DNA from: an uncultured Clostridia bacterium
GTDB taxonomy: Bacteria > Bacillota > Clostridia > Christensenellales > Pumilibacteraceae
Reading direction: 5' to 3'
Length of the DNA: 64,000 nucleotides
Assembly (NCBI GenBank): GCA_947089425.1
Contig: CAMUKG010000003.1
Location: 1-64,000 of the forward strand
The notes under the pieces were generated by a model that was not told the origin of the DNA, ran no database searches, and was given only the letters and a program-made list of their open reading frames with translations. Below, one piece after another: positions 725 to 61,996 of this stretch. The position numbers and the translations under genes are program-made. Positions within the stretch are counted from its first letter, which is position 1; each line of letters starts with the position of its first letter.

Positions 725-1554
725 TACTTTTTGTCTTTTCGTCCTTCCGTGAGTAATCTCGAATTACTCTGTTGCAATACTCGCAACTGTGATTTAGCCA
801 TATTGTTTAGCTGTACAAGCCGCTCGCTTTGTTGTACATTCTGCTCAATTAGAATCGCGTTATAACTCTCCATATTGGCAATCACAAGCAACTGTTCGAT
901 TGTCGCATAGTCGCGGATATTACCTTTAAGCGTAGGATTTCCTCTACGCCATTGCGCCGCCGTTTTACCGAATAAAGCAACGTTCAGTAAATCTGCCTCA
1001 TCCGCATAAACATACTTCAACTGCTCGTCCGTAAGCGTCGGAACAATATTTTCTTTGATTGCATCTGTATGTATACGATAGTTTACTTTTGCAAGCTCGC
1101 GCTTCGCCGACCACTCCAATGCCTTTTGCTCTTGCGCTTTCAATCGCTGGAATTCCGTAACCAAATACAATTTGAATTCGGGGCTTAACCAACTTGCAAA
1201 TTCAAACGCAATATCTCTATGGGCATACGTGCCGCCGTTGTTACCGGACTTGGATATAATGCCTATCGCATTAGTGCTTTCAATCCATTTTTGCGGCGAA
1301 AGGTAAAAACTGTGCCTGCCCGCCGCACTCTCAAAGGTCTCGAATTCGTGTCCTTTGAAATCGGGATTATGCAGTCTTTCCCAAAGTCCGAGATATGAAA
1401 TAACGTCCTTGTTCCGCATCCAAGTCGCTATCGGCACTTTCGGCTCGGACGGATTTGCATACCGAGCTAAATCGGTTAACGAAATATAGTCGTCTTTGTT
1501 GATTTTCTTAAAACGGACGTCTATCCCGTTTACCGTAAATTCATTGTTTGCCAT
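724..1554 (-). CDS. KilA-N domain protein
   Basis: This 276-residue protein has an N-terminal KilA-N domain (about residues 5-140), with the typical blocks around Tyr-Ile-Ser-Leu-Thr-Asp-Leu and Phe-Ala-Ser-Trp-Leu-Ser-Pro-Glu-Phe. The C-terminal half is charged and helical. KilA-N is a DNA-binding fold common in phages, large DNA viruses and integrated elements; its exact role here cannot be read from sequence. The start is supported by an AGGAG site 6-7 bases upstream. The gene is bracketed by two copies of a 50-bp direct repeat and is followed by a terminator, so it could be a self-contained accessory cassette. It shares direction with the relaxase-like and regulator genes around it. Confidence 0.85.
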   Translation of the reverse strand: MANNEFTVNGIDVRFKKINKDDYISLTDLARYANPSEPKVPIATWMRNKDVISYLGLWERLHNPDFKGHEFETFESAAGRHSFYLSPQKWIESTNAIGIISKSGNNGGTYAHRDIAFEFASWLSPEFKLYLVTEFQRLKAQEQKALEWSAKRELAKVNYRIHTDAIKENIVPTLTDEQLKYVYADEADLLNVALFGKTAAQWRRGNPTLKGNIRDYATIEQLLVIANMESYNAILIEQNVQQSERLVQLNNMAKSQLRVLQQSNSRLLTEGRKDKK

Positions 1555-1589
1555 TTTGTCTCCTTTTGCATTTACTTTTCGTTTCTACT

Positions 1590-1638
1590 TATCAAGCGAA
1601 TAGAACGCCTTAATTATTCCATTTTAGCAAAAATTTTT
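1590..1638. repeat. Direct repeat, copy B (after the 69-residue gene)
   Basis: This is the second copy of the repeat at 675-724. It sits directly after the stop codon of the gene at 1643-1852 and about 40 bases before the KilA-N start, so the pair flanks the KilA-N gene. Confidence 0.8.
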
Positions 1639-1642
1639 GAAA

Positions 1643-1852
1643 CTATTTTTTCTTGCGGAATTCGGGATTACTGAAATGCGGCATAGGACCTTCTCCAAAT
1701 ATGTCTATTATCTGCTCGCGAATCGGACGCGGATCGTCTTCGTCTACAACAACGATATTCTGATATTTCCTGCGGAAGTCCTTATACCGTTTCTCCAACC
1801 GCTCCTTTTGCTTCGGCAAGAATCTCTTTTGAATAAACTCTTCGGCGGTCAT
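1643..1852 (-). CDS. Small hypothetical protein of the mobile element
   Basis: A 69-residue, strongly charged protein with no family I recognise. It begins at an ATG that directly follows an in-frame TAA and has no ribosome site. A second, overlapping minus-strand frame (1782-1910, 42 residues) does have a strong G-rich site and its ATG overlaps the stop codon of the membrane gene at 1903. Which frame is translated, or whether both are coupled, is unclear. The repeat that follows the stop codon is shared with the KilA-N gene, which supports it being a real gene end. Confidence 0.45.
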   Translation of the reverse strand: MTAEEFIQKRFLPKQKERLEKRYKDFRRKYQNIVVVDEDDPRPIREQIIDIFGEGPMPHFSNPEFRKKK

Positions 1853-1902
1853 TTATTTTTTTCAAAAACTCAAGCATCCGCTTTCGCTTCATTTGTGATT
1901 GA

Positions 1903-2682
1903 TTAGGCATTAGTTCCCCCCTTTTCCACATACAACCTTAAATACGGCTCAAAATATTTATCAAATTTGTCATACTCAAATAAACTTCTGAGTTCTGCTA
2001 TCAATGAATCTATTTCTCTTGTCTTTTCGGTTTTACAATATTCTAAATATGTTGCATAAGCAGACTGATTGTTTACTAATTGTGCATAATTAGTAAACTG
2101 TCCAAAATTGCCACCATTAATTTTAGCCCATGCATTTTGAAAAATATTTATGGCAACACCATTATGAAGATATTCATCTACTTTTAATTTTAACAACTTG
2201 TACTTATCAAATAATAGACATAATACTTTTCTTAATTCATCATCACTTTGCGGCAATAGAAGTCTTGCTCTATTGACTGCCTGACATACAATATTTAATG
2301 CATTATTAAGACCATTTGAAAATATTGCAGGTAATTGTGCCCCATTTTCAATAAAAAAATTAGAGAAAATTAAATATGAACGGCCATCCATAAAACATAT
2401 CGCTTCCTGAGCCGAGCAAAAATCATTGTAAATTCCTAAAATATCAGAATGCATTTGAATGCGAATATCCCTCTCATTAATTTGCTCCTGCATGTTTATA
2501 TTTTGTTTAGCAATTTCTTCTTGTAACTTTTTATTGATTTTGTGTTGCATTATGGAAATAACAATTACAACAACAGAAAGCAATATAGGAACAAAAATGC
2601 CAACAATCGAGACCCATAACGGTAAAGTATTCGAATTCATTGTCGCTATAATTTCATCTATCTTTTGTGCCAACTCTTCCAT
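1903..2682 (-). CDS. Single-pass membrane protein of the mobile element
   Basis: The 259-residue protein starts at an ATG with a GGAGG site 7 bases upstream; the frame is open further but the extension has no site. One clear transmembrane helix lies near residues 20-45 and is followed by a polar, coiled-coil-prone segment and a mostly helical soluble domain. I recognise no named family; the layout resembles small membrane proteins carried on conjugative elements. It starts 2 bases after the stop of the Cro/C1-type regulator, so the two genes are probably co-transcribed and coupled. Confidence 0.75.
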   Translation of the reverse strand: MEELAQKIDEIIATMNSNTLPLWVSIVGIFVPILLSVVVIVISIMQHKINKKLQEEIAKQNINMQEQINERDIRIQMHSDILGIYNDFCSAQEAICFMDGRSYLIFSNFFIENGAQLPAIFSNGLNNALNIVCQAVNRARLLLPQSDDELRKVLCLLFDKYKLLKLKVDEYLHNGVAINIFQNAWAKINGGNFGQFTNYAQLVNNQSAYATYLEYCKTEKTREIDSLIAELRSLFEYDKFDKYFEPYLRLYVEKGGTNA

Positions 2683-2684
2683 AT

Positions 2685-2888
2685 TTAGTCCTCCACGATT
2701 TCCATTATATCGGATATATCGCAATCCAGCACTTTGCAAATTTTAAGTAATACCGAAGTTCTTACATCTTCGTTTCTGCCGAGCTTTGCCATAGCGGTTG
2801 TCGTAATCCCCGCCGCAACACGCAAATCTTCCTTTCTCATATCTTTATCAATCAGTAGTTTCCACAACTTTTTATAGCTCGCCGCCAT
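2685..2888 (-). CDS. Cro/C1-type helix-turn-helix regulator
   Basis: A 67-residue single-domain XRE regulator of the short, YozG-like type. Its helix-turn-helix runs from about residue 18 to 60, with an ITTTAMAKLGR recognition-helix region and a C-terminal Leu-Asp-Cys-Asp-Ile-Ser-Asp-Ile block typical of the family. It is the first gene of the minus-strand mobile-element operon. A perfect 15-base palindrome lies about 70 bases upstream and is a good candidate for its operator. It probably represses its own operon, as such regulators usually do, but this is inferred from family and position. Confidence 0.85.
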   Translation of the reverse strand: MAASYKKLWKLLIDKDMRKEDLRVAAGITTTAMAKLGRNEDVRTSVLLKICKVLDCDISDIMEIVED

Positions 2889-60024: not shown

Positions 60025-60031
60025 TGCGATT

Positions 60032-60155
60032 TATCATTGCGAGCGCAGCGGAGCAGTACGAACGTAAAACGAATAAGAAAAGATTGACGCGTCGCTGTGC
60101 GACTCCTCTCAATGACACGTAAGCTACTGTCATTGAGAGCATAGCGAAGCAATAT
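60032..60155. repeat. Dispersed GTCATTGCGAG-type repeat, two units
   Basis: TCATTGCGAGCGCAGCGGAGCA and GTCATTGAGAGCATAGCGAAGC units surround a reverse unit (GACTCCTCTCAATGAC) between two convergent genes. Confidence 0.65.
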
Positions 60156-60167
60156 ATTTAAAAAATC

Positions 60168-60216: not shown

Positions 60217-61695
60217 TCACATTTCTATTGTTTTTGTGGCTATGGCGTTTTGAAAGGCTTTGTCGTGCTCCACGAACAGCATAGAGGGAGCATATTCGCA
60301 AATTAGGTCTTCGATTTGCATGCGCGAATAAATATCGAGGTAGTTTAGCGGTTCGTCCCAAATGTATAGGTGCGCTTTTTCGCAAAGACTTTTTGCAAGA
60401 GCCACCTTTTTCTTTTGCCCTTCCGAAAACAACGAAATATCGCCGTCGTAATCGATTTTGGAAAAACCCATTTTGTTTAAAATCGCTCTGAAAAGCGGCT
60501 CTTCTATTTTGTGTTCTTTCGCAAAGTCGGGAATTTTGCCGCGCAGATTTTCGGCGGTTTGAGGCACATAAGAAATTATGAGTCCCGACGGAACGAAGAC
60601 GGTGCCCGAGCGAGGAACGGGCTCGCCGAGCGCAAGTTTTAAAATACTGCTTTTGCCGCATCCGTTTGTTCCGTGCAAAGCAATTCTTTCGCCTTGTTTG
60701 AGTTCGAAATTTACGGGGGCGCAAATTTTTTTATTGCCGTAGCATATTTCCACGTCGGAAAATTCGAGTAGCCGCTCCGACTTAAAAACGAGAGGAAAGA
60801 GCTTTAAGCTCTCGGCGGCTTCAGCGTTTTTAAGCAATTCGGACTTTTGTTCTATTGCGGCGAATTGCCGAGCTTCTACGTTTTTCGCTTGTTTCATTAG
60901 TTTTGCCGCTTTGTGCCCGACGCGTCCTCTGTCTTGCTTCAAGCCCGAACTCGCTTTGCCGTATTTGCTTTTTTCCGTTTTGTCCGCCCAAGCCGACGTG
61001 CGAGCGGCGGTTTCATGCAATTTGGCGATTTCTTTTTTGAGTCGCTTGTTTTGCGCGGCTTCGCGGTTTTGCGCGTTTTCGAAGTCTTTGAGCCAAGACG
61101 AAAAATTGCCCGCCCGAACTTCGATGTTCGTTTTGTTGAGCGATAAAATGTGGTCGACGCATCCGTCCAAAAAAAGGCGGTCGTGCGAAACGAGAATGAA
61201 CCCATTTTTCTTTTTTAGGTAGTTCGACACAATTTGTCGCACATCCGAATCCAAATGATTGGTCGGCTCGTCGATTAGCAAAAAATTGTTTCGCTTTAAA
61301 AACAGCGTCGCAAGCAAAACTTTCGTCTGTTCGCCGCTCGACAGTTCGCAAAACGGGCGATAAAGAATTTCGGGCGACGTTTGCAAATACGACAGCTCGC
61401 GAATGAACTCCCACTCTTCGGCGGCGGGGCAAAGTTCTTGCAGTATTGCTCCAACCTCGCGCGTTTTGCCGCTTACTTCGAAAGGGAAGTAAGAAAATTG
61501 AACGCTTGCGGCAATTCTGCCCGAATATTCGTGTTTGCCGAGCAACAAATTGAGAAACGTGGTTTTGCCTCGTCCGTTTCGACCCACAAACCCGAGTTTC
61601 CACTCGGTATCTATTTGAAAGCTCACGTTTTCGAACACGTTTTTATAACTGCCGTCGTGAGCGAACGTTAAATTTTGAACGCTTATTAAAGACAT
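60217..61695 (-). CDS. ABC-F ribosomal protection ATPase (Lsa/Vga-like)
   Basis: A 492-residue protein with two ABC ATPase domains and no membrane helices. Domain 1 has GRNGRGKTT, LSSGEQTK and LLIDEPTNHLD; domain 2 has GTNGCGKSS, FSEGQKKK and IWDEPLNYLD. A charged linker of about 85 residues separates them. Lsa/Vga-type ABC-F proteins displace lincosamides, streptogramin A and pleuromutilins from the ribosome. The family assignment is by overall layout, so resistance is inferred. The upstream region holds a leader peptide and terminator typical of antibiotic-induced attenuation of such genes. It has a GGGAG site. Confidence 0.85.
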   Translation of the reverse strand: MSLISVQNLTFAHDGSYKNVFENVSFQIDTEWKLGFVGRNGRGKTTFLNLLLGKHEYSGRIAASVQFSYFPFEVSGKTREVGAILQELCPAAEEWEFIRELSYLQTSPEILYRPFCELSSGEQTKVLLATLFLKRNNFLLIDEPTNHLDSDVRQIVSNYLKKKNGFILVSHDRLFLDGCVDHILSLNKTNIEVRAGNFSSWLKDFENAQNREAAQNKRLKKEIAKLHETAARTSAWADKTEKSKYGKASSGLKQDRGRVGHKAAKLMKQAKNVEARQFAAIEQKSELLKNAEAAESLKLFPLVFKSERLLEFSDVEICYGNKKICAPVNFELKQGERIALHGTNGCGKSSILKLALGEPVPRSGTVFVPSGLIISYVPQTAENLRGKIPDFAKEHKIEEPLFRAILNKMGFSKIDYDGDISLFSEGQKKKVALAKSLCEKAHLYIWDEPLNYLDIYSRMQIEDLICEYAPSMLFVEHDKAFQNAIATKTIEM

Positions 61696-61795
61696 TTTAT
61701 TTTTCTCCCGATATAATTTTTAAAGACGCAGTGGCAACTCGCGCGAACGACGACCCGCGAAGTAGCCGCCGAACGGGACGTAATTTGTCTGCGCC

Positions 61796-61836
61796 TAAAT
61801 AAAAAGAGCTATAAGAAAGTTTCGTCTTATAGCTCG
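61796..61836 (-). terminator. Attenuator terminator before the ABC-F gene
   Basis: On the minus strand GAGCTATAAGA pairs with TCTTATAGCTC, followed by a T-run. It lies about 100 bases before the ABC-F start. AAGAAAGTTT at 61865-61856 can pair perfectly with AAACTTTCTT (61822-61813) inside the terminator and would disrupt it. Confidence 0.8.
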
Positions 61837-61862
61837 AATTGCAAATTATTATAAAAAACTTT

Positions 61863-61886
61863 CTTGCGAGAAAACAAGCCCGCAAG
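61863..61886 (-). promoter_or_regulatory. Leader hairpin competing with the antiterminator
   Basis: CTTGCG-GCTTG and C-CGCAAG form a stem on the minus strand. The CGCAAG arm can also pair with an earlier CTTGCGA, and it overlaps the antiterminator strand, so alternative folds are possible. Confidence 0.55.
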
Positions 61887-61913
61887 ATTTTTAATTTCGC
61901 AAGCTTATTTTAT

Positions 61914-61952
61914 TTAATTGTGCAAGAAAAATTCTTCAACGGCGCACCTCAT
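61914..61952 (-). CDS. Leader peptide of the ABC-F attenuator
   Basis: A 12-codon frame reading MRCAVEEFFLHN and ending in TAA. It begins about 16 bases after the -10 box, without a clear ribosome site, and ends just before the competing hairpins. A ribosome stalled here by an antibiotic would change which hairpin forms. Its presence fits the known logic of vmlR- and lsa-type attenuators; translation is inferred. Confidence 0.55.
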   Translation of the reverse strand: MRCAVEEFFLHN

Positions 61953-61967
61953 ATTTTATATAACAGT

Positions 61968-61996
61968 AGTATAGCACACTTATTAGGTAAACTCAA
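61968..61996 (-). promoter_or_regulatory. Promoter of the ABC-F leader
   Basis: TTGAGT (61996-61991), a 17-base spacer and TATACT (61973-61968) on the minus strand, about 270 bases before the ABC-F gene. Confidence 0.65.

Follow-up and report, generated by a model that had tools for sequence, protein, structure and literature searches.

The Lsa-type ABC-F gene in the window, as we call the 64,000-nucleotide stretch of a Pumilibacter draft genome (Clostridia, Pumilibacteraceae; 1.94 Mb) that was analyzed, is probably preceded by a ribosome-mediated transcription attenuator, in which a ribosome trapped by a drug on a short upstream open reading frame (uORF) would free an RNA segment, B. From sequence comparison and folding, we put the probability of this reading at roughly 0.85. 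That an ABC-F resistance-type gene is controlled by ribosome-mediated transcription attenuation was also the core of an initial annotation of this DNA, and this core is strongly supported by the comparison with relatives, in which the uORF, the mutually exclusive helices, and the terminator are conserved and covary. The features of the leader and gene are collected in Table 1.

Table 1. Features of the proposed attenuator and its gene, by position in the window.
Feature	Position	Strand	Basis
Promoter, TTGAGT (61996-61991), 17 nt, TATACT (61973-61968), extended -10 TG	61968-61996	minus	consensus scan
uORF Shine-Dalgarno (SD), GAGGTG	61945-61950	minus	sequence; GAGGTG or GGAG-type SD kept before relatives' uORFs
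Regulatory uORF, TTG 61939 to TAA 61910, MKNFSCTIK-stop	61910-61939	minus	position and frame conserved; M-x-x-x-S-C family; shuffle test
Segment A, TTTTTCTTGC, inside uORF; 5′ strand of anti-antiterminator	61922-61931	minus	A:B pairing and two-sided changes
15-bp hairpin (with G-U) inside A:B, holding CTTGCG motifs	61872-61911	minus	fold; sequence common to P. muris
Alternative stem TCTTGCG/CGCAAGA, then T-run	61862-61887	minus	only here and in P. muris
Segment B, GCAAGAAAGTTT, partner of A or of C	61856-61867	minus	sequence and helix alignment
Segment C, AAACTTTCTT, terminator loop and 3′ arm; antiterminator partner of B	61813-61822	minus	B:C pairing
Intrinsic terminator, 11 bp, GAGCTATAAGA-loop-TCTTATAGCTC-TTTTT	61801-61835	minus	scan; helix alignment
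GC-rich segment, ~83 nt, between terminator and gene	61714-61796 (ends approximate)	minus	absent in P. muris; one copy in genome
SD of ABC-F gene, GGGAG	61705-61709	minus	sequence
Lsa-type ABC-F ribosome-protection protein, 492 aa	60217-61695	minus	NF000167 and NF000355 scores; Lsa(A) 7nhk

The assignment of the gene to the resistance-type ABC-F proteins, made in the initial annotation, is borne out by the family scores and the closest structure. The protein passes the model for ribosomal protection-like ABC-F proteins (NF000355, 466.6 bits against a cut-off of 380), and the Lsa family (NF000167) is by far its best family, over its full length. Since the score there, 693.5 bits, just misses the cut-off of 750, we name the gene Lsa-type and not Lsa. 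Its best solved relative is Lsa(A) (7nhk). There are two ABC_tran stretches, and in the translation both ABC sites are intact in Walker A, signature, and Walker B with its catalytic Glu (GRNGRGKTT, LSSGEQ, and DEPTNHLD in site 1; GTNGCGKSS, FSEGQ, and DEPLNYLD in site 2). The genome holds a single close match to this protein, which is the window's own gene, and the Lsa-type protein of P. muris, the nearest named species, is 80% identical to it. The unit looks monocistronic because the upstream neighbor, a rubrerythrin/Coat F-like gene, has its own terminator (62040-62013), and another lies 3′ of the ABC-F gene (60198-60168).

The promoter, the terminator, and the perfect 10-base antiterminator pairing of the initial annotation are all present where it had placed them. 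The promoter region contains a block, AATAAGTGTGCTATA, that is identical in P. muris. The pairing is that of B with C, in which AAGAAAGTTT (61865-61856) is perfectly complementary to AAACTTTCTT. Segment A is almost a direct repeat of segment C, and either can pair with B; it is visible in the sequence that A and C compete for B and that B competes for the 3′ arm of the terminator. The leader folds more than expected by chance (z = −3.7 and −4.9). The uORF begins 5 nt after GAGGTG, and its P. muris counterpart is MKNFSCKI. The CTTGCG hairpins described earlier do exist, at 61911-61862; the nested form was seen only here and in P. muris. The competitor that relatives retain is segment A of the uORF with B, and the role of the hairpins is secondary. 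It is possible that the TCTTGCG/CGCAAGA stem with its T-run is an extra early terminator.

The upstream regions of 128 Lsa-type homologues (450 bases, or less where the sequence ended) were compared. In 57 of the 128, a micro-ORF with an SD in front ends in Ser-Cys or one residue beyond it, against a mean of 0.6 and a maximum of 3 in 50 dinucleotide shuffles; its usual form is M-x-x-x-S-C-stop. A translatable uORF thus lies before the terminator, with its SD and start conserved. We curated 80 leaders, which, less five doubtful ones, gave 75 loci with the full layout, i.e., a uORF with A, then B, then a terminator with C. By protein identity, the layout is found in 19/26 homologues at 60% or more, 40/55 at 55-60%, 15/30 at 50-55%, and 1/13 below. 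The element was not found in the upstream region of one homologue from the same genus (L011). Conservation is concentrated in the SD, the start codon, and segments A, B, and C, while the intervening loops are variable, and the distance from start codon to the end of A is 18 nt in 58 of 66 leaders. In two leaders (L025 and L032), the uORF continues through B (MISISCIKFNKSVQTDILQEK), and therefore a translating ribosome would itself mask B.

An anchored alignment of 48 distinct leaders, free of gaps, was used to examine the helices. The percentage of cells with standard pairs, which is inflated because the B and C windows were selected at each locus for their complementarity, is 97.9% for A:B, 90.8% for B:C, and 98.1% for the terminator helix; with the partners slid by 1-3 columns, pairing falls to 45-71%. 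The two-sided changes, like the covariance-model test described below, are less exposed to the choice of windows. Such changes occur in 4 of the 8 pairs of A:B and in 10 of the 11 pairs of the terminator helix, with 27 doubly changed cells in B:C and 112 in the terminator. Covariation is thus found in all three of the mutually exclusive helices, the anti-antiterminator, antiterminator, and terminator. Linked changes across the three segments can be read in single leaders, as in L130 (TTTCCCGC / GCGGGAA / TTCCCGC) and L043 (TTTACTTGC / GCAAGTAAG / TTTACTC), and the terminators of the window and P. muris differ in two adjacent compensatory pairs.

Growing prefixes of 65 leaders were folded, either free or with the uORF start and 17 nt masked. 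In the free RNA, A:B is kept in 62-65 of the 65 leaders, and the terminator forms. With the uORF start masked, a B:C helix of at least 5 bp is optimal in 57-59 of the 65 as C emerges, versus 1-2 in the free RNA, and in the window's leader it persists up to 3 nt beyond the C anchor. In silico, then, a ribosome on the uORF shifts folding to the antiterminator. At full length with A masked, the terminator is still the stabler fold in 46 of the 65 leaders, the window's included. Because the complete terminator is stabler even so, the switch would have to act kinetically, like transcription attenuation in general.

We propose that, in the absence of drug, ribosomes would initiate at TTG 61939 and, having translated the short uORF, dissociate. 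With the ribosome gone, segment A (at the end of the uORF) would pair with B, the downstream hairpin would fold, and transcription would terminate at 61801-61805. A drug that traps the ribosome at or just after initiation would hold it on the start codon, where it would cover A. Once freed, B would pair with C as C exits the polymerase and would occupy part of the 3′ arm of the terminator. With the terminator blocked, polymerase would be expected to read through into the ABC-F gene, with resistance as the predicted outcome. Lsa proteins give resistance to pleuromutilins, lincosamides, and streptogramin A, and, because the gene is Lsa-type, we infer by analogy that drugs of these classes may induce the leader. 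The TTG start of the window's uORF was counted against the attenuator reading. On the other side, this three-helix reading is supported by the fact that the same logic has been demonstrated experimentally for vmlR (PMC9226507).

Is it the peptide or the position of the uORF that matters? Functional-looking leaders include start-stop and very short uORFs (M-stop, MK-stop, MI-stop, MR-stop, MKL-stop, and MRN-stop). In others, Ser or Cys is replaced (Ser to Thr or Ala, Cys to Arg) with a compensating change in B, as in MRMIACK, MRKFTCK, and MSISR; Cys is missing from MKQLS and MRILSF; and one uORF, MKIFLAK, is out of frame. In leaders with an early uORF stop, the frame of A drifts; nearly all uORFs that read through A keep it. 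This pattern could as well stem from a requirement for a stop codon where A ends as from selection on the peptide. Since start-stop uORFs persist and losses of Ser or Cys come with matching changes in B, the comparison suggests that the position of the uORF matters more than its peptide.

Alternatively, M-x-x-x-S-C could be a genuine drug-dependent arrest peptide, one that senses the drug at the Cys or at termination, in the way that MsrDL senses erythromycin. Nearly all leaders whose uORF enters A have TCT-TGC in frame, and most of these have the stop directly afterward or no more than a few codons later; for MsrDL (MYLIFM), stalling occurs at the stop codon (PMC10314930). The start-stop forms, the replacements and losses just described, and the out-of-frame MKIFLAK speak against such a peptide, and the Ser and Cys codons double as A-strand bases that pair with B. 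We consider it unlikely that the uORF acts in this way. It is equally unlikely that M-x-x-x-S-C represents a new class of arrest peptides dependent on PTC drugs, in which stalling at Cys or termination sets drug specificity and from which the start-stop forms degenerated.

The Ser-Cys pair conserved before the stop in most leaders might instead recall an amino-acid attenuator, in which the uORF would gauge the charging of Cys or Ser tRNA and the gene would answer starvation. This is very improbable, as the uORF has a single codon each for Cys and Ser, leaders without Cys or without either persist (M-stop, MK-stop, MKQLS, MRILSF), and the downstream gene encodes a ribosome-protection factor, not a biosynthetic enzyme; cysteine or serine attenuation was rejected on the variants that lack Cys or both. 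A riboswitch-like leader that binds a ligand or protein, with the uORF incidental, would fit the stable structure (z = −4.9) but is hardly to be expected from an RNA that has no Rfam match and that is conserved in the SD, start codon, and A/B/C with variable loops. In the initial annotation, the ribosome stalls on a 12-codon frame from ATG 61952 to a TAA (MRCAVEEFFLHN), and the CTTGCG hairpins are the chief competitor; this frame is open for its 12 codons and starts near the likely transcript start, but the version is barely credible, given that the frame has no SD (GAGGTG overlaps the ATG and serves TTG 61939), that the nearby ATG frame in P. muris is MRR-stop, and that the peptide recurs in none of the 80 curated leaders otherwise. 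Of the leader peptide and pairing whose conservation was compared, the pairing is conserved and MRCAVEEFFLHN is not, which refutes this leader peptide.

A covariance model, R2, was built on the SD-uORF-A...B part of the attenuator. In the window's own genome, it has a single match, at this leader (E = 2e-11; next best, E = 0.3). Across 391 genomes of the class, 41 have matches, of which 37 lie beside Lsa-type genes. The other four are in genomes that lack an lsa match and were inspected manually. Three of them, L167-L169, look like chance matches at coding starts and were rejected as leaders. The fourth, L170, is a real leader (uORF MIIFSCK) before an ABC-F gene (1294-2823, minus strand) that is non-Lsa and closest to the CplR/Msr/Vga models, which suggests that the attenuator has been exchanged between ABC-F families. 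A draw from the phylum gave 25 further matches, at 21 lsa-type genes, 2 lsa remnants, 1 GNAT-like gene, and 1 by chance. At the remnants (L176, ~1500-1970; L178, ~1500-1780), the attenuator persists before a truncated lsa, the rest of the gene being lost. The related leader before the GNAT-like acetyltransferase gene (L192, ~1500-1785) has the uORF MIITTC, and its A and B have changed together to TACTTGC/GCAAGTA; the enzyme is perhaps a drug-modifying one. The plasmid lsa(E) leader (L132:1124-1237) has the same attenuator with the uORF MYNFSC; it matches 111 plasmid records, with an identity of at least 99% in 110, and mobile lsa(E) with this leader is found in enterococci, listeriae, and staphylococci.

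Attenuation of ARE ABC-F genes under uORF control is established for vmlR (MIN), cplR (MRI), VmlR2 (MK[L/Q]), and msrD (MYLIFM), with MAGN predicted for lsa(A) (PMC9226507, PMC10314930, PMC10201436). The B. subtilis vmlR leader, which is induced by lincomycin, has the elements of the window's leader in the same order: a short uORF in an anti-antiterminator, an antiterminator, an intrinsic terminator, and an ARE ABC-F gene (PMC9226507). This likeness covers the uORF and helices, leaving out the NusG pausing and SD-sequestering layers, and vmlR differs in its uORF and RNA sequence and in its gene, which is ARE2 whereas ours is Lsa (ARE3)-type. The C. difficile cplR leader (uORF MR[I/M]) is likewise a uORF-controlled ARE ABC-F system in Clostridia, acting by transcription and translation attenuation; in contrast to the window, its gene is ARE1-type, its terminator overlaps the gene's SD, and the available part of the report mentions no A/C direct repeat of the window's kind (PMC10201436). 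The same paper describes E. faecalis lsa(A), also an Lsa gene with a predicted short uORF, MAGN; compared by uORF peptide, it differs from MxxxSC, and the M-x-x-x-S-C family falls outside the MAGN homologue set because that set was limited to at least 80% identity (PMC10201436). The msrD leader also has a six-residue peptide and attenuates the transcription of an ARE ABC-F gene; it differs in being a macrolide sensor whose peptide sequence is decisive, whereas here the start position seems weightier (PMC10314930).

In Rfam, no family matches the leader at gathering score, and the other matches are at chance level. A search of the open literature with six of the family's uORF peptides, within a scope that stopped short of the 2016 Term-seq report (Dar et al.), gave no relevant paper. 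The class of mechanism is thus already known (VmlR, CplR), and the leader family is absent from Rfam and the searchable literature. One uncatalogued attenuator family appears to control Lsa-type genes across a broad range of Clostridia and Bacilli, many of them gut bacteria, and also the clinically mobile lsa(E). Its uORFs, which range naturally from start-stop to hexapeptide and come with matching RNA, suit the question of peptide versus start position for drugs that stop initiation.

Three further observations concern neighboring sequences. Upstream of the lsa-type gene at L063 and L133, there is a further leader ORF, marked by a VTHxLLRI motif (MVLELDVTHELLRISRYNLSNIYGVI in the case of lsa(B)), which may be an additional attenuator acting on translation. 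The GC-rich segment between the window's terminator and gene was considered as a dispersed repeat and rejected, given its single copy in the genome. Sequence of the CATTGCGAGCGCAGCGGAGC...GAAGCAAT type at 60030-60160, 3′ of the gene, resembles dispersed intergenic repeats.
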